Shown: in pieces, positions 6,374 through 33,122 of the stretch | Numbering within the stretch: position 1 is the stretch's first letter | Layout of the letters: the number at the start of each line of letters is the position of its first letter | Origin: Lawsonibacter sp. | GTDB lineage: Bacteria; Bacillota; Clostridia; Oscillospirales; Oscillospiraceae | DNA: 60,600 nucleotides | Reading direction: 5' to 3' | Assembly (NCBI GenBank): GCA_022801435.1 | Contig: JAAWSG010000007.1 | Coordinates: forward strand, 1-60,600 | The notes under the pieces: model-generated | Seen by the model: the letters and a program-made list of their open reading frames with translations, nothing else | The model's database searches: none | What the model was told of the DNA's origin: nothing | Program-made: the position numbers and the translations under genes

Positions 6374-7582
6374 ATGAATCTGACAGACGCAATGCTGCTG
6401 GAGCGGATGCAGCAGATGGCGGCCAGCATGGCGCTGCCCCAGATCGGAGGGTTGAGCCAGAACGCCCAGCCCAAGACCAACAAGGACGGCGTCAGCTTCC
6501 AGGACCTGATGGACCGGGCCCAGAGCGGGAAGGAGACCACCCCCGCCAAAAAAACCCCCTCCAGCCAGGACACCCAGAAGAGCGAGCTGGCCGGTGAGAC
6601 CGCCCCCGCCCAGGAGGTGAAGGGGAAGCCGCTGGACAAGGACGACCCCAGAATCAAGGAGATGGACCCCCATATGCAGGCCCTCGTTGCGGCGGGCATC
6701 GCGGTCCCCATGGAGCTGGAGAACGGCACGGTCATGATGTCCATCCCCGCCGGCGAGCTGCCCTGCGTCACCATGACCGCCCTGCAGCCCAACGGCGAGC
6801 CCGACCTCAGCCAGCCCATCGTGATTCAGACCGGAAGCGGCCAGATATTCAAGGTGTGGCTGGACGGCGAGGAGCCCGTCGTGGAGCGGTCCATGCTGAC
6901 TCCTGAGGAGAGCGCCCGCTTCCAGGACGCCCTGCTCCAGGAGACCCGGGAGACCGAGAGCGGCACGGAGACGGTGGTGCTCCCCAGGGAGACTCCCAAG
7001 GCGGAGACCCACACCGGGGACAGCGCCCAGAGCGGCCAGGAGGACCAGGACGGGGAGGAGCGCTTCCAGACCACGGTCATCCGGGAGCCGCTGTTCAAGG
7101 CTTTCGAGGGGACCCCGGTCAAGGTGGGAGAAAACTTCCACACCGTGGACACCCAGGCCCCCGACATGGACGCCCAGCTGGCTCAGGCCATTCAGCAGGC
7201 GGCCCAGAGCGGCGAGCAGTCCATGATTATCAAGCTGACCCCGGAGAATCTGGGCAACCTCACCATCCAGCTCACCCAGAGCGGGGACGGGGCCCTCCAG
7301 GTGGTGCTCCACGCCAGCAGCGCCAAGGCGGCGGGCGTGCTGAGCGAGCACCTGGACAGCCTGAATCTGGCTCTGCAAAATCTCAGCGGGAGCCCGGTGA
7401 AGGTGGAGGTCCAGCGCCACGAGGACAGCCAGCAGGCCCAGCAGCACGCATTCCAGCAGGCAGACCCCGACGGCCACAACCGCCAGCAGCAGCAACAGCA
7501 GCGCCAGCGGGAGGAGGACAGGAGCGAGGACTTTATTCAGCAGCTCCGCCTGGGCCTGTTCAAGCTGGAGGACATTTTCTAA
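6374..7582 (+). CDS. fliK: flagellar hook-length control protein FliK
   Basis: FliK measures hook length and switches export specificity through FlhB. The 402 residues have a long low-complexity Gln/Glu/Pro-rich N-terminal part and a C-terminal Flg_hook-type domain near 270-345 containing IKLTPENLGNLTIQLT, followed by a Gln/His-rich tail ending in an acidic, hydrophobic tip. GGAGG stands 11 bases before the ATG. It lies directly upstream of flgD, as in many Gram-positive operons. Confidence 0.9.
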   Translation: MNLTDAMLLERMQQMAASMALPQIGGLSQNAQPKTNKDGVSFQDLMDRAQSGKETTPAKKTPSSQDTQKSELAGETAPAQEVKGKPLDKDDPRIKEMDPHMQALVAAGIAVPMELENGTVMMSIPAGELPCVTMTALQPNGEPDLSQPIVIQTGSGQIFKVWLDGEEPVVERSMLTPEESARFQDALLQETRETESGTETVVLPRETPKAETHTGDSAQSGQEDQDGEERFQTTVIREPLFKAFEGTPVKVGENFHTVDTQAPDMDAQLAQAIQQAAQSGEQSMIIKLTPENLGNLTIQLTQSGDGALQVVLHASSAKAAGVLSEHLDSLNLALQNLSGSPVKVEVQRHEDSQQAQQHAFQQADPDGHNRQQQQQQRQREEDRSEDFIQQLRLGLFKLEDIF

Positions 7583-7599
7583 GAGAGGAGAAACCTGAT

Positions 7600-8256
7600 T
7601 TGAGCGATTATATCAACGACATCATCAACCGCTACGCCGCGGAAGCCGCTGCGGCAGGGAGCGCCGCCCGGGGGACCCAGAAGGCCGGGAGCACGGATGA
7701 CGGCTACACCAGCTGGCGGGATGAGAAAAAGGGCAGCGGCGCGGAGCTCTCCTTCACCGATATGCTCGGCCTGATGGTGGCCCAGTTCCAGAACCAGACC
7801 ATCGACAACCAGGCGGACACCAACGACATGATGAACCAGCTGATTCAGATGACCATGATGCAGGGCATGACCAAGATGACCACTCAGATGGAGGACCTGA
7901 CCCAGGCCAACATCCTGAGCTACTCCGCCTCCCTGGTGGGGAAGGAGGTCACAGTCGGCGTCAAGGACGAGGAGGGCAACCTCCAGGAGATCGTGGGCAC
8001 AGTCACCGCGGCGGGGACCTATGACGGACATCCGGTCATCTTCATCGGCGACAAGAGCTATCTGCTCAGCAGCATTATGGCGGTGGGCAAGCTGCCTGAG
8101 ATCAAGGACCCGGAGAAGCCCGGCGAGGGTGACGGCGACGGCACGGACCCGGACGGCGACGGAAACGGCACGGACCCCGTGGACCCCCCGGAGAACAACG
8201 GCGGGACCGAGAGCGGCGGCGGAGCCGGAGACAGCGGGGGAACGGAAGGAACCTGA
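7600..8256 (+). CDS. flgD: flagellar hook-capping protein FlgD
   Basis: FlgD is the scaffold that caps the growing hook and is removed afterwards. The family signature is seen as FTDMLGLMVAQFQNQTIDNQ followed by a Met/Gln-rich helix (residues about 48-100), and then SLVGKEVTVGVKDEEG opens the beta domain. The 218-residue protein ends in an unusual Asp/Gly/Pro/Asn-rich tail of about 50 residues with no clear fold. The start is TTG with AGAGGAG upstream. Confidence 0.92.
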   Translation: MSDYINDIINRYAAEAAAAGSAARGTQKAGSTDDGYTSWRDEKKGSGAELSFTDMLGLMVAQFQNQTIDNQADTNDMMNQLIQMTMMQGMTKMTTQMEDLTQANILSYSASLVGKEVTVGVKDEEGNLQEIVGTVTAAGTYDGHPVIFIGDKSYLLSSIMAVGKLPEIKDPEKPGEGDGDGTDPDGDGNGTDPVDPPENNGGTESGGGAGDSGGTEGT

Positions 8257-13260: not shown

Positions 13261-14604
13261 ATGGAAGATATTATTTTTAGCCCGATGGTAATCGACGCCA
13301 TCGGGGAGATCATGAACATCAGCCTGGGCTCCTCCGCCACTGCGGCCTCCAACATGCTGGACCACCGGGTGGACATCACCACGCCACAGGTGGAGGTCAT
13401 CAACGCAGAGGACTTCGCCCTGGGCAGGATCGAACCGGCGGTAGGCGTGGAGATCAAGTATGTGTGCGGCCTGGAGGGCAGCAACATCATGATGCTCAAG
13501 CGCAGCGATGTAAAGGCGATTGTGGACATCCTGCTGGGGACCGAGACACCGGATGAGGAGTTTGAGCTCAATGACCTGAGCATCAGCGCCACATGTGAGC
13601 TGATGAATCAGATGATGGGCTCAGCGGCAACCGCGCTGTCTGATCTCCTGGGCCGGATGGTAAACATCTCCACCCCCGAGTCCTTTGAGATGACCAACCT
13701 GGACAAGGTGAAGGAGGAGCACTTCCCGGTGACGCAGGGCCCGGTGGTGGTGGTCCGGTTCCACCTGACCATTGAAGACGTGCTGGACAGCGAGTTCATG
13801 AACGTCATGTCGGTGGAGCTGGCCAAGGAGCTGGTGGCCGGCTTTGGCCTGGAGCTGGATGAGACCTCAGAACCCGCTCCAGCCCCCGCACCCGCCCCCG
13901 CCCCTGCCCCGGCCCCCGCGGGCGGCGGCTCCACCATGAGCCAGGAGGAGATCGAGCGGATGATGGCCTCCATGTCGGGAGGCGCTCCGGCTCCCGCGCC
14001 CGCGCCCGCCCCTGCCCCGGCGGGCGGCGGCTCCACCATGAGCCAGGAGGAGATTGAGCGGATGATGGCCTCCATGTCGGGAGGCGCTCCGGCTCCCGCG
14101 CCCGCCCCTGCCCCGGCCCCCGCACCTCAGCCGGCTCCGCCCCCCGCAGCGCCTGCGGCCGCTCAGCCCGCCACCACGGCGGACCTGAGCAGCATGATGG
14201 CGGCCATGATGGCGGCTATGACCACCGCCATGGCCAACAATGCGCCGCCCCCGGCTCCGCCCCGGGACCCCAAGGTCATCAATGCCCAGCCGGCAAAAAT
14301 GCGCGAGCTGAACGCTGAGGCCAAGCTGAACCAGGAGCAGAGGGATAACCTGGACCTCATCCTCACCGTGCCCCTGGAGGTGGCGGTGGAGATCGGACGG
14401 ACCCGCCGGAAGATCCAGGAGATCCTGTCCTTCTCCAAGGGCTCGCTGGTGGTGCTGGATAAGCTGGCCGGCGACCAGGTGGACCTGCTGGTCAACGGAC
14501 AGTGCATCGCCCGGGGAGATGTGGTGGTCATCGACGACAACTTCGGCATCCGCATCACCGAGATCCTACAGAAGCCCGACATCAACGAGTTGGTCCAGGG
14601 CTGA
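13261..14604 (+). CDS. fliY: switch protein/CheY-P phosphatase FliY (CheC-FliN type)
   Basis: FliY combines a CheC-like phosphatase domain with a FliN domain and sits in the C-ring. The 447 residues start directly with the CheC-like domain. Both active-site pairs are intact (Glu16/Asn19 and Glu113/Asn116). A Pro/Ala-rich linker of about 130 residues follows, then Met-rich helices and a C-terminal FliN domain ending ITEILQKPDINELVQG. Bacillus and Thermotoga FliY begin with a CheY-binding peptide. Here that peptide is absent from the N-terminus, and two near-identical copies of a similar sequence (MSQEEIERMMASMSGG) sit inside the linker. Confidence 0.93.
   Translation: MEDIIFSPMVIDAIGEIMNISLGSSATAASNMLDHRVDITTPQVEVINAEDFALGRIEPAVGVEIKYVCGLEGSNIMMLKRSDVKAIVDILLGTETPDEEFELNDLSISATCELMNQMMGSAATALSDLLGRMVNISTPESFEMTNLDKVKEEHFPVTQGPVVVVRFHLTIEDVLDSEFMNVMSVELAKELVAGFGLELDETSEPAPAPAPAPAPAPAPAGGGSTMSQEEIERMMASMSGGAPAPAPAPAPAPAGGGSTMSQEEIERMMASMSGGAPAPAPAPAPAPAPQPAPPPAAPAAAQPATTADLSSMMAAMMAAMTTAMANNAPPPAPPRDPKVINAQPAKMRELNAEAKLNQEQRDNLDLILTVPLEVAVEIGRTRRKIQEILSFSKGSLVVLDKLAGDQVDLLVNGQCIARGDVVVIDDNFGIRITEILQKPDINELVQG
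13915..14118 (+). repeat. 102-bp tandem duplication inside fliY
   Basis: Two copies with a 102-bp period (34 codons) encode GGGSTMSQEEIERMMASMSG followed by an Ala-Pro run. Copy one contains GGCGGCGGCT at 13921 and copy two the same at 14023. Over the non-AP core the copies differ by about one silent base (ATC versus ATT for Ile), so the duplication is recent or kept uniform. Confidence 0.9.
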
Positions 14605-24982: not shown

Positions 24983-26302
24983 ATGACAAGTAACAAGTAT
25001 ATTGTCCGGCAGCCCATCAAGAATCAGAGCAGCCAGATCATCGGCTATGAGATCCGCTACTACGGAGAGAATCAAGCCTACAGCAGCGAGGGGCCCACCA
25101 GCAGCGACTTTGCCGCAGCTGACGCCATCTACAGCTTCCTGACTCAGAACACGGATAAGGTGCTGAAGGGCTCCCTGAACTTTATGACCTTCACCACCAA
25201 CCTGCTGATGAAGCAGACCCCCAAGCTCTTCGACTGCCACGACCTGGTCATTCAGGTGGACGACAGCGTGATTATCAACCCCCTGGCCATGCGGTTTGTG
25301 GAGCGGTACTCCAAGGAGGGGTACAAGATCGCGGTGAACGATTTCCAGTTCTCCCCCCGGTACTTCTCCATTATTGACAAATTCGACTACATCAAGATCA
25401 ACTTCAAGACCATCACCGACTCCAGCATCCACAATATCGTGGAGGTGGCCCACAGTATGCACAAGCAATGCGTCGCCACCAATGTGGACACCGAGGAGCT
25501 GTATCAGAAGGCCTTCAAGATGGAGGTGGACGCTATAGAGGGGCAATGGGTGGCGGAAAACCTGTTCACTACGGTCCACTCCAGCAGCTACCTCCAGAGC
25601 AACTTCTTCCGCCTGATGATCGCCATCAACGAGGACGAGCCCAACGTGGACGCCATCGAGCAGCTGATCTCCATGGACGCCATGCTGACCTACAGCCTGC
25701 TGAAGATCGTCAACTCGGGATATTTCGCCCTGCGCAACCAGGCCACTACCGTGCATCAGGCCATTGTGGTCATGGGCCTGGGGCAGCTGAGGCAGTGGAT
25801 CTACCTGCTGGGGGTCAACAACGAGGAGGGCGGCAGCGACAGTGACCAGGAGGAGTTCCTGAAGCTGTCCTTCATGCGGGCGAGCTTTTGCAGCGAGCTG
25901 ATGAAGCTGGCCAAAAACATGCCCATCTCCCGGAACGATGCCTATCTGATGGGGATGTTCTCCACATTGAAGTACCTGATCGACGCGCCTATGGAGGAGC
26001 TGCTGGTCGACCTGCCCATCACCCAGGAGGTTAAGGACGCGCTGCTCTACGGGACCGGCAGGTGCGGCACGCTGTACAACCTGGTGCGCAGCTATGAGCG
26101 GGCGGACTGGGGGGCCATTGAGGCAATGGCGAAGGAGCTGGAGATCTCCGTTGACCTGCTGACCAACACCTATTTCCAGTGCCTGGAAGAGGTGAACGAC
26201 ATCTGGCGTCAGCTGATTGAGGTGGGGGACCTGTCCTCCCAGCCGGCGCCGCCCCCCCAGGAGACCGCAGCGCCTGCTGAGCCAGCGGCGCCTGTGGGAT
26301 AG
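24983..26302 (+). CDS. EAL-HDOD domain signalling protein, catalytically degenerate EAL
   Basis: This protein of 439 residues resembles the YuxH/CdgJ family. An EAL-type domain covers about 1-200 (RQPIKNQSSQIIGYEIRYYG). The EAL/ELL triplet is EIR, and the usual DDF metal-binding motif is NDF, so phosphodiesterase activity is unlikely. An HDOD domain covers about 205-405 (MDAMLTYSLLKIVNSGYFAL). The C-terminal tail is Pro/Ala-rich. Members of this family control motility in other bacteria. It closes the fla/che operon, 11 bp after cheV. Confidence 0.88.
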   Translation: MTSNKYIVRQPIKNQSSQIIGYEIRYYGENQAYSSEGPTSSDFAAADAIYSFLTQNTDKVLKGSLNFMTFTTNLLMKQTPKLFDCHDLVIQVDDSVIINPLAMRFVERYSKEGYKIAVNDFQFSPRYFSIIDKFDYIKINFKTITDSSIHNIVEVAHSMHKQCVATNVDTEELYQKAFKMEVDAIEGQWVAENLFTTVHSSSYLQSNFFRLMIAINEDEPNVDAIEQLISMDAMLTYSLLKIVNSGYFALRNQATTVHQAIVVMGLGQLRQWIYLLGVNNEEGGSDSDQEEFLKLSFMRASFCSELMKLAKNMPISRNDAYLMGMFSTLKYLIDAPMEELLVDLPITQEVKDALLYGTGRCGTLYNLVRSYERADWGAIEAMAKELEISVDLLTNTYFQCLEEVNDIWRQLIEVGDLSSQPAPPPQETAAPAEPAAPVG

Positions 26303-26310
26303 AAAAAAAT

Positions 26311-26351
26311 ACCGCGGAGACCTGTTGTGTGACAGGACTCCGCGGTTTTTT
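26311..26351. terminator. bidirectional intrinsic terminator ending the fla/che operon
   Basis: The arms ACCGCGGAG-A-CCTGT and ACAGG-A-CTCCGCGGT pair around a short loop. A T-run follows on the + strand and an A-run precedes the stem, so it also works on the - strand. The stop codon of the converging ComFB gene lies at its edge. Confidence 0.9.
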
Positions 26352-27291
26352 ACCGTATCTGAGCCAAATCCTCCGGGGTGTGACGGGGGCTGTCCGAGAC
26401 GATTTTACACGCCCGGGTGAGCTGGGCGAAGATGGTGCTGCTGAACCGCCCCTCATACACGGTGAGCATGGGGATCATGTCGTGCTTCTTCATCACCACG
26501 TACTTGGGGATCAGGTTGTTCAGGGTCAACGCGACCACGTCGATCCTGCATCGGGGACAGGAGCACAGGCCGAACATTTTGATATAGCGCGGGGCCAGCT
26601 CCTCCACCAGAGATTGAATGACATTGACATAGGTCAGCTCATCGGCGGGGTTGGCGGGCTCTGGAGCAGACTCAGGCTCGGGTTCCGGCTCTGGAGCGGG
26701 TTCAGGTTCCGGCTTTGGAATGGGCTCCGGCTCCGGGATGGGCTCGGGTTCCGGCTCTGGAACGGGTTCCGGTTCAGGTTCCGGCTCAGGCTCCGGAACG
26801 GTCTCCGGCGCGGGCGGCTGGGAGAGGTCCTCAAAGGTGGTCTCCACAAAATCGGAGGGCTCCCCCTCTTGAGCGGCCAGATCAGCCTCCAGCGCCTGGG
26901 CCAGGGCGGCCTCCAGACCAGAGGGGGCGCTCTCCGCCGGAAGGGGGGAGACAGGCTCCACAGGGGGAGAAGCGGGCTCCGCCGGAGGAGGGGGGGCCGG
27001 GGCTGGGACCGGAGGGGGCTCAGGGGCCTGGCGGACGGGGGGAGGCGGCGCGGCCTCCTGCAGTTCCTCCTCCAGCGCCTGCTGGATCTGCTGGGCCAGA
27101 CTCTCGTCGTTGGCCTGCGCGACCTCCAGAATGGGGGGGATCAGGGGGCGGGCGGCGGGGGCGGGCTGTACGCTCTCAGGGGCGGCGCTCTCCTCCTCCC
27201 CCAGGGGGGCTCCTCCGCCGCCGGGGGCGGTGAGCAAATTCAAAACATGGGCTGTCTTATTGCCTTTGGCGTTCTTTTTGCCAGAAGCCAT
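26350..27291 (-). CDS. ComFB-domain protein with basic N-terminus and Pro/Glu-rich linker
   Basis: The 313-residue protein has three parts. The first is a basic N-terminal peptide ([20 protein letters not shown]). The second is a long acidic Pro/Glu/Ala linker that includes about 50 residues of PEPEP-type repeat. The third is a C-terminal domain (about 214-313) with [20 protein letters not shown] and [16 protein letters not shown], matching the ComFB family. Proteins of that family have been reported to bind c-di-GMP in cyanobacteria; that property is only inferred here. ATG at 27291 is chosen because AAGGAG lies 10 bases upstream; an in-frame ATG eight codons earlier precedes that SD. It lies 104 bp downstream of a ParA gene and probably shares its transcript. 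Confidence 0.8.
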
Positions 27292-27395
27292 AAGAGATAC
27301 ACTCCTTTCTGGCATCTCCGCCCCGGTCCCTCATCCAGGAGGAGGCCGCGGCCGGAGGCGTTCTGTCTATGGTTCCTGCCGCTCCGGGGAGGGCG

Positions 27396-28181
27396 TCAGC
27401 GGGTGGGGATGGGGGGAAAGCTGCCGTACTCCCGGGTGACCTCGTTGAGCAGCAGGCGGAAATCCCGGGCCACCTTGGAGTCGGGGGCGTAGGTGAGCAC
27501 GCTCTCCCCGTGGGCGGGGGCCTCCGCCACAGCCACGCCGGAGCGGATGCGGGCCTGGAACACCTTGGTATCCAGCTGGGCGGCGATCTGCTCCGCCATG
27601 TCCAGCACCTCCCGGTTGAGGGTGAAGCGCTGGTTGTACTTGTTCAGCAGGATGCCCAGCACCCGCAGGCGGGAGTTGTAGCACCGGCGGACGGTGTCAA
27701 TGGTCTCCCGGATCTGGGCCACCCCCAGCAGGCTGAGGATCTCGGGGGCCATGGGGATAATCAGTCCGTCGGCGGCCACATAGGCGTTCACCGTCAGGAC
27801 ATTCAGGGCGGGCGGTGTGTCGATGATGATATAGTCGTACTCCTCCGCCACCTCCGCCAGGCAGTTTTTCAGCAAAAACTCCCGGCCGGGGCGGTTGAAC
27901 TCCAGCTCGGCAGCGGACAGCAGGATGTTGGAGGGCAGGATATCTCCGCTCTCCGACTGGACGATGACCTCCCGGATGGGGCGGTTCCCCTTCATCACGT
28001 CATAGATGGTGGCGCAATTCTCAATGTCCAGGCCCAGACAGAAGCCCAGACTGCCCTGGGGGTCCAGGTCAACGCCAAGCACCTTCGCTCCGCGCTGGCG
28101 AAGGCCGGCCAGGAGAGCGCAGGCGGTGGTGGTCTTGCCCACGCCGCCCTTCTGATTTGTGGTGACGATAACAGCGGCCAA
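27396..28181 (-). CDS. ParA/Soj-type positioning ATPase
   Basis: The protein is 261 residues with the deviant Walker A KGGVGKTT (residues 11-18, signature Lys11), switch VDLDPQGSLG and Walker B YDYIIIDTPP. It has no N-terminal helix-turn-helix and no C-terminal amphipathic membrane helix, so it is closer to Soj/ParA than to MinD. It lacks the N-terminal extension expected of FlhG. The start is TTG with GGGGGAG spaced correctly. No ParB gene or parS site is apparent. Context between flagellar operons and beside a ComFB protein suggests it positions motility machinery rather than a replicon. Confidence 0.85.
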   Translation of the reverse strand: MAAVIVTTNQKGGVGKTTTACALLAGLRQRGAKVLGVDLDPQGSLGFCLGLDIENCATIYDVMKGNRPIREVIVQSESGDILPSNILLSAAELEFNRPGREFLLKNCLAEVAEEYDYIIIDTPPALNVLTVNAYVAADGLIIPMAPEILSLLGVAQIRETIDTVRRCYNSRLRVLGILLNKYNQRFTLNREVLDMAEQIAAQLDTKVFQARIRSGVAVAEAPAHGESVLTYAPDSKVARDFRLLLNEVTREYGSFPPIPTR

Positions 28182-28215
28182 AAATATCTCCCCCTACGTC
28201 TAAATTCTTCCCTCG

Positions 28216-28241
28216 GCCCCGGCTCCGGAGGGGAGCGGGGG
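28216..28241. other. GC-rich hairpin in the parA leader
   Basis: Complementary segments around CCCCGGCTCC and GGAGCGGGG can form a strong stem in the 5' leader of the parA transcript on the - strand. There is no adjacent T-run, so it is not a terminator. A role is not known. Confidence 0.35.
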
Positions 28242-28270
28242 GCAAGAGAAATTCTTTCTTCTATGAGACT

Positions 28271-28297
28271 TAACTTTATAATACTACAGGACGATAA
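28271..28297 (+). promoter_or_regulatory. sigma-28 promoter of fliD
   Basis: TAAC at 28271-28274, a 15-bp spacer and GACGATAA at 28290-28297 match the sigma-28 consensus TAAA-N15-GCCGATAA at ten of twelve positions. It lies about 90 bp before the fliD ATG in the intergenic region shared with parA. Control of a filament-cap gene by sigma-28 is normal. Confidence 0.72.
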
Positions 28298-28386
28298 AAA
28301 AGTACAGAGTATTCCTGTTTTTTCTTTTCAAACAGATGGGGAACCTGCTTGAGGATATGAATTCAAAATTGGAAGGAGCGTTTTAA

Positions 28387-31194
28387 ATGGCCTCGATCAG
28401 TGGAGTAAGCGGCAGCAATACTATGAGCAGCCTGATGAACAGCGCCAACATGGTAAGCGGGCTGGCCAGCGGAATGGATACGGAGGGTATGATCGAAAGT
28501 CTGGTGCAGAGCTATCAGACCAAGATCCAGAGCCTCAGCCAGAAGGTGGCAAAAACCGAGTGGAAGCAGGACGCCTACCGCAGCATCATCAGCAAAATGG
28601 TTGGATTTTCCAACAAGTACACCTCCTACACCTCCGGCACAAACCTGATGTCCGCCAGCTTTTTCAACAGCGCCGCCCGGGTGGCGACCCAAGGGTTGTA
28701 TAAGGACCTGGTCTCCGCCAGCGGCAAGTCCAGCAGCGACATCACCCTGAACTCCGTCAGCCAGCTGGCCACCGCCGCCCAGTACCGCACCAACAGCAAT
28801 ATGAAGGCGGGGGACGGCAAGAGCATTGAGGCCTCCAGCGGCATCGACCTGAACGGCAAGACCACCCTGGGCACGCTGAGCGGCAGCCTGAGCCTGACCT
28901 ACGGCAGCCAGACGGTAAGCATACAGTTCGATGAGGTGGCCGATGTGGAGGCCATGAAGGACATCCGGGCCAAGCTGGAGAAGGACGGCAAGCCCGCCTC
29001 TGACACCGATGTGCTGGCCGAGCTCATCAATCAGAAGCTGGGCGACCAGCAGATCACCCTCAGCACCGGCGCGGAGGACGCGGACGAGCGCATCGGGGTG
29101 GAGGTGAAGGACGGGAGCATCACCTTCTCCGACAAGTCCAAGGCGGGCAACTCGGTCTATGTCTCCGGGGCCAGCGACGGGGTCAAGAACTATCTGGGCC
29201 TGAACCTGGACAATGCCAGCGAGGAGAAGCCCAAGTCCATCGCCATCCCCAGCAATTACGCGAACACCAAGCAGGTGGACAACGCCGCCTATCTCTCGGG
29301 CAAGAGCATGAACCTGAGCCTGGACGGCACCACCAAGACCATCACCCTGCCCAAAATCACCGGCAGCAAGGAGGCCGGCTATAAGATCGTGGACAGCGAT
29401 GGCAAGGCCCTGGACTACAACGCCGACAACTACGCGAAGGTCCTCAATGAGGCGGTGAACAAGGCCTTCAAGGGCAAGGTGGAGGTGAAAAATACCGGCA
29501 GTGACGGGGAGCTCAAGCTGCGCTTCGATGTGCAGGAGGGCTCCAACCTGGTCATCAATACCGATGTGGGAGAGACCCTGGGCATCGGCCGGACGGCTAC
29601 CTCCTACATGAACGCCAGCAAGACCCTGGGGGACCTGCTGGGAGAGGATACCCTGTCCGGGCTGACCCAGGCCACCAAGGTCAACAGCGACGGCACAGTG
29701 GAGAAGCTCACCGATGACAAGGGCGACCCCCTGTACGCCTTCGAGATCAACGGGGTGAATGTGGGCAACTTCTCCAAAAACAGCACCCTGTCTGAGGTCA
29801 TGTCCGCCATCAACGGCAATAAAGAGGCCGGCGTGCGGGTGAGCTACTCCCAGACCACCAAGAACTTCCTGTTCACCTCCAAGGAGACCGGCGCGGACAG
29901 CGAGGTCAAGATGGGTGAGGGGCTGGCGCAGGCCATGTTCAGCTCCACCGAGATCCCCGACAACAGCGGAAACAGCTTTGCCGACGCTTATGGCGTCAGC
30001 TGGGTGAAGGACGGGAAGAGCGCGGATCTCAAGTTCTCAATCTCCGGGAACAGCTCCCTGGATATCAGTATCACCGATGAGACCTCCCTCCAGGACGTGG
30101 TGGATACCCTGAACAATTCCCCCATGGGGATGAACAGCAGCTTCTCCTTTAACAAGTACACGGGGCAGATCGAGGCCAGAGACAAGAAGAGCGGCACCCT
30201 GCAGGAGCTCAAAATTGAGGACTCGTTCGGGGATAAGGTGGAATTTGACCAGAGCAAGGCCCCCGCTGTGGACTACACCCCCGGCCAGGACGCTAAGTTC
30301 AATGTCACGGTGAACGGCGAGAACATCGAGATGACCCGCAGCTCCAACACTGTGACCATCGACGGGCTGAGCATCACCATGAAGGACGTGTTCAACGGCT
30401 ATGAGGACGCGGACGGGAACCCCGCCGTGGACAGCGCCGGAAACCCGAAGAACGCGGTCACCTTCAGCAGCAGCGTGGACGCGGACAAGATCGTGGACGC
30501 GGTGAAGTCCATGCTGGAGGACTACAATGCCATGATGGCCGAGATCAAGTCCGCCTATTCCACCATGCCCTATCAGAAGACAGACGGCACCTTCGCCGAC
30601 TACGAGCCCCTCACCGAGGACGAGCGGCGGAACATGTCCGAGAGCGAGATCCAGCGCTACGAGGAGAAGGCCAAGCAGGGCATCCTCTTCGGGGACCGGA
30701 ACCTGTCCAACCTGTATGATAAGATGCGCAACATCTTCAACCTCTCCGGGGAGGACGGAGCCACCCTGCGGGCCATGGGCATCAGCACCAGCTACTCCAC
30801 CAGCGACGGCGTCCAGACCGTGACCCTGGACGAGAGCAAGCTGCGGGATATGCTGGAGAGCGACCCGGACCGGGTGACCGACCTGTTCACCAGGACGGAC
30901 GGCGCGGGGGGCATCATGCAGAACATGAAGACCCAGCTGGACCGCTACGCCAAGACCTCCGGCGAGCCCAAGGGCATCCTGGTCCAGCAGTCCGGCACGC
31001 CCCTCAGCTCCCTGTCCCTGCTGAACAACAACTGGCAGAAGGAGATCGACAACATCAACACCCAGATCGATAAGTGGAAGGATAAGCTGACCACCCAGGT
31101 GGACCGGTACACCCAGCAGTTTACCCGACTGGAGATGCTGATTAACCAAATGAACTCCCAGAGCTCCACCTTGGCGGGGCTGATGGGTGGCTAA
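28387..31194 (+). CDS. fliD: flagellar filament cap protein FliD
   Basis: FliD caps the filament and folds flagellin at the tip. The N-terminal segment VSGLASGMDTEGMIESLVQS and the C-terminal domain (VDAVKSMLEDYNAMMAEIKS and later TLDESKLRDML) are clear. Coiled-coil heptads at both ends hold together the D0/D1 legs. At 935 residues it is far longer than the usual 450-600. The extra length falls in the Thr/Ser/Asp-rich middle, consistent with expanded outward-facing domains. It heads a unit with fliS and a further small gene. Confidence 0.93.
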   Translation: MASISGVSGSNTMSSLMNSANMVSGLASGMDTEGMIESLVQSYQTKIQSLSQKVAKTEWKQDAYRSIISKMVGFSNKYTSYTSGTNLMSASFFNSAARVATQGLYKDLVSASGKSSSDITLNSVSQLATAAQYRTNSNMKAGDGKSIEASSGIDLNGKTTLGTLSGSLSLTYGSQTVSIQFDEVADVEAMKDIRAKLEKDGKPASDTDVLAELINQKLGDQQITLSTGAEDADERIGVEVKDGSITFSDKSKAGNSVYVSGASDGVKNYLGLNLDNASEEKPKSIAIPSNYANTKQVDNAAYLSGKSMNLSLDGTTKTITLPKITGSKEAGYKIVDSDGKALDYNADNYAKVLNEAVNKAFKGKVEVKNTGSDGELKLRFDVQEGSNLVINTDVGETLGIGRTATSYMNASKTLGDLLGEDTLSGLTQATKVNSDGTVEKLTDDKGDPLYAFEINGVNVGNFSKNSTLSEVMSAINGNKEAGVRVSYSQTTKNFLFTSKETGADSEVKMGEGLAQAMFSSTEIPDNSGNSFADAYGVSWVKDGKSADLKFSISGNSSLDISITDETSLQDVVDTLNNSPMGMNSSFSFNKYTGQIEARDKKSGTLQELKIEDSFGDKVEFDQSKAPAVDYTPGQDAKFNVTVNGENIEMTRSSNTVTIDGLSITMKDVFNGYEDADGNPAVDSAGNPKNAVTFSSSVDADKIVDAVKSMLEDYNAMMAEIKSAYSTMPYQKTDGTFADYEPLTEDERRNMSESEIQRYEEKAKQGILFGDRNLSNLYDKMRNIFNLSGEDGATLRAMGISTSYSTSDGVQTVTLDESKLRDMLESDPDRVTDLFTRTDGAGGIMQNMKTQLDRYAKTSGEPKGILVQQSGTPLSSLSLLNNNWQKEIDNINTQIDKWKDKLTTQVDRYTQQFTRLEMLINQMNSQSSTLAGLMGG

Positions 31195-32081: not shown

Positions 32082-33122
32082 TCAGAATCCGCTTTGGGAC
32101 AGGAGCCACAGCGGCGCGCCGTGGTGGCGGCTGGCGGAAAGCTCCTCCAGAATGAGGTCCAGATCCCACAGGGTGAGGCTGCGCTCCACACTGGCCGGGT
32201 CCGCCACCAGGATGCTCCCGTCCAGCGTGACCCCCCGCAGAAGGATGAAATGTCCCCTGCTGGTGAAGTGGCCGGGCCCCATCAGCGCCGCAATGACCTG
32301 GCCGGTGGCCAGATAGCTGACAAGCAGATCGGGGTCCAGCTCCTCCGGAGACAGGGGGGTGCAGGTCAGCCCGTAGGCCTCCGCCGCTCCCGAGACAATG
32401 GACAGATAGGAGCCGTGCTTCCGGGCCCAGTACCGGTTCTCCACACACCACTGGGCCATCTCCGCCGGGTCTATGGCGGTGCTGGTCAGGCTGGAGACCG
32501 CCATGGCCATGGCGGTGGGGCCGCAGCCGTAGCCCCCCAGCCGGTCCGTGCCGTAGGGGGCGTCCGCCCAGCGGTCATAGGTCTGGTTGTAGTAGATGAT
32601 CTCGCGGGCCCCGCCGGTGAGAATCTCCTGGCCGTCCCGCTCAATGAGGGACGTGACCTCAAAGGGCGCTCTGGGCCGGGGAGGCGGGGCTGTGGCGCTG
32701 TCGTCCAGCTGCTGGCTCTCCTCCGGAAGCTCCTCCGGCTCCCCCTCGGCCTGGGCCAGCTCCGCCGCCGCCAGGGAGGTGCCGTCCAGCGCGCTGCGGC
32801 CCAGCTCCCCCATCCGGGAAAAGCCGGTGAGGATGGGCGCGGTCAGCTGGCTGTACAGCTCGGGGGCCTGGAGGGAGAGTACCCCCAGTCCGCCCGCCGT
32901 GATGCACAGCGCCGCCGCTCCGGCCAGGATGGGCCCGAGCCGGAAGGAGCGCCTGGGTACGCCGAAGACATCGACACCCTCCCCGCCCTCATCCTCCGGT
33001 TCCTCCAGCTCATAGGGGAAGAAGCTGTAGTCCTCGGGCTGCTCCGGGCCGAAGCCGTCCGACTCAGGGCTGTCCAGGTCAAATTCATCCTCGTCTACGT
33101 CATGATGCCTAAAAAATCTCAC
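32082..33122 (-). CDS. membrane-anchored C39-like (papain-fold) peptidase
   Basis: The 346-residue protein has an acidic cytoplasmic N-terminus of about 55 residues, one membrane helix (about 62-84), a Glu/Pro/Ala-rich stalk, and an extracytoplasmic C39-like domain. Likely catalytic residues are Cys200 (GGYGCGPTAMAM), His291 (SRGHFILLRGV) and Asp308 (ILVADP). The family includes double-glycine leader peptidases, but no ABC transporter domain is attached, so the substrate is unknown. The start is GTG without a strong SD, which leaves the first residues uncertain. It is divergent from an FtsE-like gene with overlapping promoters. Confidence 0.8.
   Translation of the reverse strand: MRFFRHHDVDEDEFDLDSPESDGFGPEQPEDYSFFPYELEEPEDEGGEGVDVFGVPRRSFRLGPILAGAAALCITAGGLGVLSLQAPELYSQLTAPILTGFSRMGELGRSALDGTSLAAAELAQAEGEPEELPEESQQLDDSATAPPPRPRAPFEVTSLIERDGQEILTGGAREIIYYNQTYDRWADAPYGTDRLGGYGCGPTAMAMAVSSLTSTAIDPAEMAQWCVENRYWARKHGSYLSIVSGAAEAYGLTCTPLSPEELDPDLLVSYLATGQVIAALMGPGHFTSRGHFILLRGVTLDGSILVADPASVERSLTLWDLDLILEELSASRHHGAPLWLLSQSGF

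Follow-up and report, generated by a model that had tools for sequence, protein, structure and literature searches.

A gene for a ParA-family ATPase and a gene for a three-part ComFB-domain protein lie together in a flagellar and chemotaxis gene block of Lawsonibacter sp., and in a sample of the family the long form of this pair is restricted to FlhA-bearing genomes and mutually exclusive with FlhF/FlhG. The reading preferred here, to which we give just short of an even chance, is that the pair may be a ParA-type positioning system for flagellar or chemotaxis cargo, with the ComFB protein as partner and sensor. This reading is based on the linkage of the two genes, the flagellar restriction, the exclusion of FlhF/FlhG, a conserved N-terminal peptide, the ComFB fold, and the presence of GGDEF and DAC proteins in the genomes concerned.

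The window is the whole stretch of DNA analysed (60,600 nucleotides), and the features of the locus are listed in Table 1. Coordinates and profile matches agree with the earlier note, which had described a Soj-type ParA with KGGVGKTT and a three-part ComFB protein downstream of it at a distance of 104 bp (27292-27395). The comFB start is the ATG at 27291, with the RBS-like GAAAGGAG directly before it. The block is ordered flhB-flhA-fliA-flgF/G-cheC-cheD-cheV-EAL/HDOD, facing comFB-parA, then fliD-fliS-fliT; the EAL-HDOD gene converges on comFB, and the claimed position of the pair next to it and facing fla/che genes holds. FliM, FliY, CheY-like, FliP, FliR, FlhB, MotA/B-like, and hook proteins were named by the family scan, FlhA by match, and FliA, CheC, CheD, CheV, FliD, FliS, and FliT by eye. 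The EAL profile was matched over positions 114-235 of 236 only, so the EAL domain of the neighbour is probably non-catalytic, not an active phosphodiesterase. T runs flank both sides of the hairpin between the two convergent genes, which a simple scan did not list. An ORF at 32082-33122 (-), C39-peptidase-like by eye, follows the fliT-like gene, and its position is kept in many relatives.

Table 1. Features of the parA-comFB locus (window coordinates)
Feature	Position	Strand	Remarks
EAL-HDOD protein, convergent neighbour of comFB	24983..26302	+	HDOD 2.1e-19
Two-way terminator-like hairpin, EAL-HDOD/comFB	26306..26351	.	-28.1 kcal/mol, z -6.19
Three-part ComFB-domain protein, proposed ParA partner	26350..27291	-	313 aa, PF10719 match
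ComFB domain with CxCxxC and C-terminal His (Zn ligands)	26386..26628	-	
Variable Pro/Glu-rich linker	26629..27051	-	EIDALL-type repeats in some relatives, none in window
Second conserved helix, putative binding element	27052..27135	-	AlphaFold helix, pattern common in relatives
N-terminal basic peptide, first 21 residues, proposed ParA-activating	27229..27291	-	conserved KTAHV core
Orphan ParA/Soj-type ATPase	27396..28181	-	TTG start; RBS-like sequence; best Pfam AAA_31 4.2e-51
Divergent parA/fliD intergenic region	28182..28386	.	
Sigma-28-like promoter facing fliD	28270..28296	+	TTAA-N16-GACGATA
fliD, divergent neighbour	28387..31194	+	by eye, without family scan; conserved beside pair

The pair had been said to share the promoter region of fliD. 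The common intergenic region stands; it contains a sigma-28-like site that faces fliD, and the window showed none directed at parA. Using what we take to be the sigma-28 consensus, sites were found in the fliD direction in 45 of 76 regions and in the parA direction in 3/76, with a mean of 1.75 in shuffles (the 76 regions are the window and 75 loci from L141-L220 and L269-L271, where readable). Since the latter count is near the shuffle mean, parA is not evidently a late flagellar gene, and sigma-28 control of parA was set aside as unsupported. A simple scan of the window gave no sigma-70-type site near the pair. The main rival to positioning is gene regulation, that is, the pair would regulate flagellar gene expression or assembly number as a cyclic-dinucleotide switch that acts on transcription or a flagellar factor, as FleN/FlhG does on FleQ; we consider this unlikely. 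Transcriptional regulation is a known role of Soj- and FlhG-type ATPases, FlhG itself, not found in pair genomes, acts in this way elsewhere, and the pair lies opposite the sigma-28-like site for fliD. Against this, no transcription-factor partner is linked to the pair, the family scan showed no DNA-binding domain in the ComFB protein, and a conserved basic peptide with a flexible linker is the typical build of a positioning partner.

Linkage of the two genes was followed outside the family by scanning one genome each of 84,980 species (GTDB species set) with the N-terminal peptide pattern alone, which picked out 238 stretches, of which 197 are relatives. We examined the best 80, which share the peptide by construction; the ParA neighbour is independent of it, and some of the genomes overlap the G-numbered sets. 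ParA lies upstream of comFB on the same strand in 80/80, at no more than 354 bp in 79 and at 426 bp in L214, and fliD is divergent in 71/80. Among the nine of these loci without a divergent fliD, seven have ParA within ~220 bases of a contig end, and two, L213 (Peptococcaceae) and L217 (Bacillota), carry the pair without fliD within 12 kb, which counts against the positioning reading. At L213, two PilZ-domain genes, 6374-7021 (+) and 7089-7676 (-), follow comFB directly beside the pair. The convergent EAL-HDOD copy, present in 47 of the best 80, is less constant than fliD. Flagellar or chemotaxis genes were present in 74 of the 79 loci counted among the best 80 (L214 also has fliD), and the five loci without such genes are the short contigs L168, L172, and L208 together with L213 and L217. 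In the G-numbered genomes, ParA lies upstream of comFB in 28 of 30 loci, and the remaining two are cut at the contig start, with a matching ParA-fliD piece on another contig. Searching 391 genomes of the class gave 112 PF10719 matches, mostly in frames of ~87-146 aa; the long ComFB proteins of the class outside the family (G458, G541, and G416) are each beside ParA and fliD, and no ParA was seen beside a short ComFB among the 30 class loci listed.

Within the family, 300 genomes were sampled, with a PF10719 match in 56 and an FlhA match in 62 (54 of these over the cut-off). The 62 FlhA-positive genomes comprise 29 with the long pair, 5 with a short sister pair, 12 with FlhF, 13 with neither, and 3 that are unassessable because the contig ends before the place of the pair. 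The long-pair class consists of the window, 25 loci with the genes together, and three split loci (G172, G189, and G287), in which a contig end parts the pair, so that comFB is on a different piece from ParA and its neighbour fliD; L032 (G166), with a long open frame and a short-type ComFB, was left out. It had been set beforehand that finding the pair mostly outside motile genomes would speak against the proposal; the long form was found in none of the 238 FlhA-negative genomes, where the PF10719 matches are those of G006, G047, and G272, in frames of 101-105 aa. Fisher tests gave 2e-23 for the long pair versus FlhA and 5e-6 for the pair versus FlhF (59 genomes), values for which related genomes are not independent. 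That the pair places another cargo, for example, a type IV pilus or a DNA-uptake machine co-regulated with motility, is very unlikely: ComFB proteins have known links to competence and piliation (PMC12313861), but most of the loci counted above carry flagellar or chemotaxis genes and the long form is not found in FlhA-negative genomes.

FlhF was over the cut-off in 12 of the 62 FlhA-positive genomes, each of which also has an orthologue of FlhG (E below 1e-85), and no genome of the sample has both the pair and FlhF/FlhG. The absence of flhF and flhG, noted earlier, was confirmed in the 34 pair genomes searched, the window's own genome included: none has FlhF over the cut-off (best match in the own assembly 87.3 bits vs 174.15), and none has an FlhG orthologue (best matches E 1.5e-7 to 4.5e-21), the best match in the own genome having 28% identity and occupying the place of MinD. 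The own assembly is 81% complete, but the searches of the 33 other pair genomes likewise gave neither gene. A canonical FlhG identity for the ParA was rejected, FlhG matches in pair genomes being far weaker than in FlhF genomes. In an FlhA tree of 44 rows, 22 long-pair, 5 short-pair, and two contig-cut rows form one clade (97/87), seven FlhF rows form another (100/99), and G233, of neither kind and on a long branch, joins the base of the pair clade. By this tree, the pair seems to be a fixed component of a single flagellar lineage, made up of Oscillospirales-type genomes. We infer that the pair may functionally replace FlhF/FlhG; since the exclusion follows one flagellar lineage, it may also be due to shared descent rather than functional replacement, and placement can do without the pair and FlhF/FlhG alike, as 13 of the 62 FlhA-positive genomes have neither.

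The short sister pairs (L060, L064, L226, L227, and L228) consist of ParA and a ComFB protein of 145-149 aa. The N-terminus of these ComFB proteins is different but basic, AKSK(K/R)ELDKD in four of five, and flagellar or chemotaxis genes are present in four of the five loci. A PilZ gene follows the pair in two of them (L064, 9817-10506; L226, 10697-11353).

The ParA motifs KGGVGKTT (deviant Walker A) and DLDPQG are kept in 31/31 aligned orthologues, apart from one V-to-I exchange in the former and one L-to-I exchange in the latter. At what we take to be the two DNA-binding positions of Soj, the first is Arg in 30/31; the second is Arg in 12/31 only (Ser in the window), which would count against the positioning reading, and its neighbour is Arg or His in 31/31. 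The C-terminus is a short tail without an evident membrane helix, so the nucleoid would be the favoured surface for ParA. Among solved structures, this ParA is nearest by sequence to Soj-type partition ATPases; neither it nor the ComFB protein was over the cut-off of any NCBIfam model shown. The ParA tree places the 30 rows of pair ParAs together (78/93, a branch that is not starred), next to the short sister pairs (100/100), and the 27 other ParA-family rows, which are best matches in related genomes and labelled Soj-type by us, form a separate group (97/97).

The ParA family of the own genome consists of the pair ParA, a Soj-like ParA, a MinD, and a protein that is Mrp-like by eye. The two ParB-family genes of the assembly flank the Soj-like ParA on contig C52, and ParB neighbours were checked for this genome's Soj-type ParA only. 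No cognate ParB lies beside the pair, and a scan of the window with what is presumably the parS consensus gave 0 matches with up to 3 mismatches, in keeping with the earlier remark that neither ParB nor parS is apparent for this ParA. DNA or plasmid partition, with the place beside fliD being inherited synteny only, is therefore highly improbable: the likeness to Soj-type ATPases is in its favour, but the genome has a separate Soj-like ParA flanked by ParB-family genes, ParB beside the pair and parS-like sites in the window were not found, and the pair is restricted to FlhA-bearing genomes in the sample. Partition ATPase was accordingly rejected as an identity, since the pair tracks the presence of flagella and the ParB-family genes accompany another, Soj-like ParA.

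An alignment of 26 long ComFB proteins was used to compare the N-terminus. The KTxxV core (KTAHV in the window) keeps its K, T, and V in 26/26. Mean top-residue frequencies, taken over columns filled in >=70% of rows, are 0.68 for the first 20 residues, 0.61 for the second helix, 0.63 for the ComFB domain, and 0.47 for the remaining linker, the last value being raised by Pro/Glu/Ala bias. AlphaFold gives a short helix at residues 11-20 (block pLDDT 68), a longer helix at 52-79 (62-86), a ComFB domain with block pLDDT of 95-98, and mostly low confidence elsewhere. A pattern for the second helix, drawn up after seeing the helix, was found in 98 of 109 long ComFB proteins (0.44 in shuffles). What the partners of ParA/MinD ATPases have in common is a short basic peptide, located in or close to the N-terminus, that activates the ATPase and has an essential basic residue (PMC13170346, PMC12462528); the conserved basic peptide fits these known activators by analogy. 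Of the earlier proposal that it activates ParA, the conservation and the fit stand, and the interpretation as a whole is partly supported; none of the three conditions named beforehand as refuting it came true. ParB and MinE sites lie at the ATPase dimer interface (PMC12462528, PMC13170346). A joined ParA-peptide chain (parA plus comFB N-terminus, with L142, 25 other such rows, and five ParA-only rows as input) was modelled as a ParA monomer only, with a good ParA and an undocked peptide (block pLDDT 36-48); this counts against the positioning reading, but is uninformative for a site at the dimer interface, as ParB-type sites need a ParA dimer.

The linker differs among species. An EIDALL-type motif, which is the CheY-P docking motif of FliM/FliY (PMC9126983), is present in the linker of 12/108 long ComFB proteins with 1-6 copies each, namely nine close relatives of the window, L190, L047, and L271 (the form in L271 being diverged), and is absent from the window protein and 96/108 relatives. 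The other 1.34 million residues of six-frame ORFs gave six matches, five in FliM/FliY and one chance-like, in loci that overlap in part and mostly do not reach fliM or fliY; shuffled ComFB proteins gave a mean of 0.007. The motif points to CheY or the switch as a putative partner in some species only, and its absence from the window protein and most relatives means that CheY docking is not the general function. It has some bearing on another reading, in which the ComFB protein would mainly be a chemotaxis brake, with FliM-like linker motifs binding CheY-P under cyclic dinucleotides and ParA distributing ComFB. This is suggested by the motif-bearing linkers, by the binding of CheY-P to the same motif in FliM/FliY, and by cheC, cheD, and cheV among the neighbours, and is distinctly unlikely given the many proteins without the motif. 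The window FliY (13261-14604, +) has two EIDALL-like motifs (MSQEEIERMM) inside its linker at ~residues 226 and 260, not at the N-terminus, the window FliM has one at the N-terminus, and the FliY of a relative (L221, 2391-3833) has three.

The ComFB domain was matched by PF10719 at residues 222-302 with 47.4 bits vs a cut-off of 25; the Bacillus-type ComFB model NF052654 (NCBIfam) was not reached, with 35.5 vs 120. The Zn ligands of ComFB are CxCxxC and a C-terminal Cys/His (PMC4381287), and the corresponding C242, C244, C247, and H303 are invariant in 26/26. Of the five dimer residues named in the same paper, the window seems by our mapping to keep four, the fifth being Gln in place of Glu. 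The AlphaFold domain matched 4wai (Bacillus subtilis ComFB) with E 3.7e-5 and prob 1.00, and 8hja (Synechocystis CdgR-c-di-GMP crystal) with E 3e-3 and prob 1.00, the latter match being weaker in E-value and TM-score. Both c-di-AMP and c-di-GMP are bound by Synechocystis ComFB (PMC12313861), so the ligand should not be taken to be c-di-GMP alone; for the Nostoc homologue CdgR, others found binding of c-di-GMP (PMC12313861; PMC13075795). Makers of both cyclic dinucleotides are present in 29/29 long-pair genomes, with 1 to 44 copies of GGDEF and one of DAC. A second, short ComFB of the own genome (L001, G000:C73:20252-20494) lies downstream of an unrelated long ORF and is convergent with an ORF that is aldehyde-dehydrogenase-like by eye.

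Under the positioning reading, ATP-bound ParA dimers would coat the nucleoid by means of the basic residues kept at or next to the Soj DNA-binding positions. The ComFB protein would be dimeric through its C-terminal domain, which forms dimers in B. subtilis, and so present two basic N-terminal peptides on long flexible linkers; these peptides may stimulate ATP hydrolysis and release ParA, in the manner of ParB, MinE, and PomX. Linker elements or the ComFB domain would hold the cargo; given the FliM/FliY-type docking repeats of some relatives, CheY or the switch/array region is the leading candidate. Binding of a cyclic dinucleotide to the ComFB dimer may change this link, so that placement or number of the machine would follow the motile/sessile signal. 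In its boldest form, a nucleotide-gated placement system would have replaced FlhF/FlhG in a single flagellar lineage among gut Clostridia, with ParA moving a ComFB receptor that in some species has up to six copies of the FliM/FliY motif in its linker, and with cyclic dinucleotides deciding the location of CheY-P, switch, or flagellum; this full version is improbable.

Several known systems can be compared with the pair. Like FlhF/FlhG, found within this bacterial family in a flagellar lineage related to that of the pair, it includes a ParA/MinD-family ATPase coded in a flagellar gene block; unlike it, the ATPase is Soj-like, the partner is a ComFB protein, and FlhF over the cut-off and FlhG orthologues are missing from the pair genomes. 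ParABS (Soj/Spo0J) is similar in the closeness of the ParA to Soj-type structures and in a partner with a basic N-terminal peptide and a hydrophobic helix, whereas the pair is without a ParB domain, an adjacent ParB, or parS in the window, and its ParA is separate in the tree. With ComFB/CdgR (PF10719) the pair protein shares the fold, Zn-ligand residues, most dimer residues, and Pfam family; it differs in an added N-terminal part of ~220 residues, an accompanying ParA, and a score below the NCBIfam cut-off. To our knowledge, no known protein-cargo ParA partner has a ComFB domain. A ParA-type ATPase dedicated to protein cargo is common to the pair, ParC/ParP and PpfA/TlpT (chemoreceptor arrays), McdA/McdB, and PomZ/PomX (PMC10241942, PMC13170346), from all of which it differs by its ComFB receptor-like partner. 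A literature search for ComFB with ParA or flagella, covering titles and the starts of abstracts and few subscription papers or preprints, gave no description of the pair. We know of no established account of flagella or array placement in motile Clostridia without FlhF/FlhG, for which the pair is a specific and testable placement candidate, and the repeat-bearing relatives allow a direct biochemical test by CheY-P binding. If the positioning reading is true, the ParA-linked branch of ComFB proteins would gain a function, and ParA positioning and cyclic dinucleotide signalling would be joined in one partner protein.
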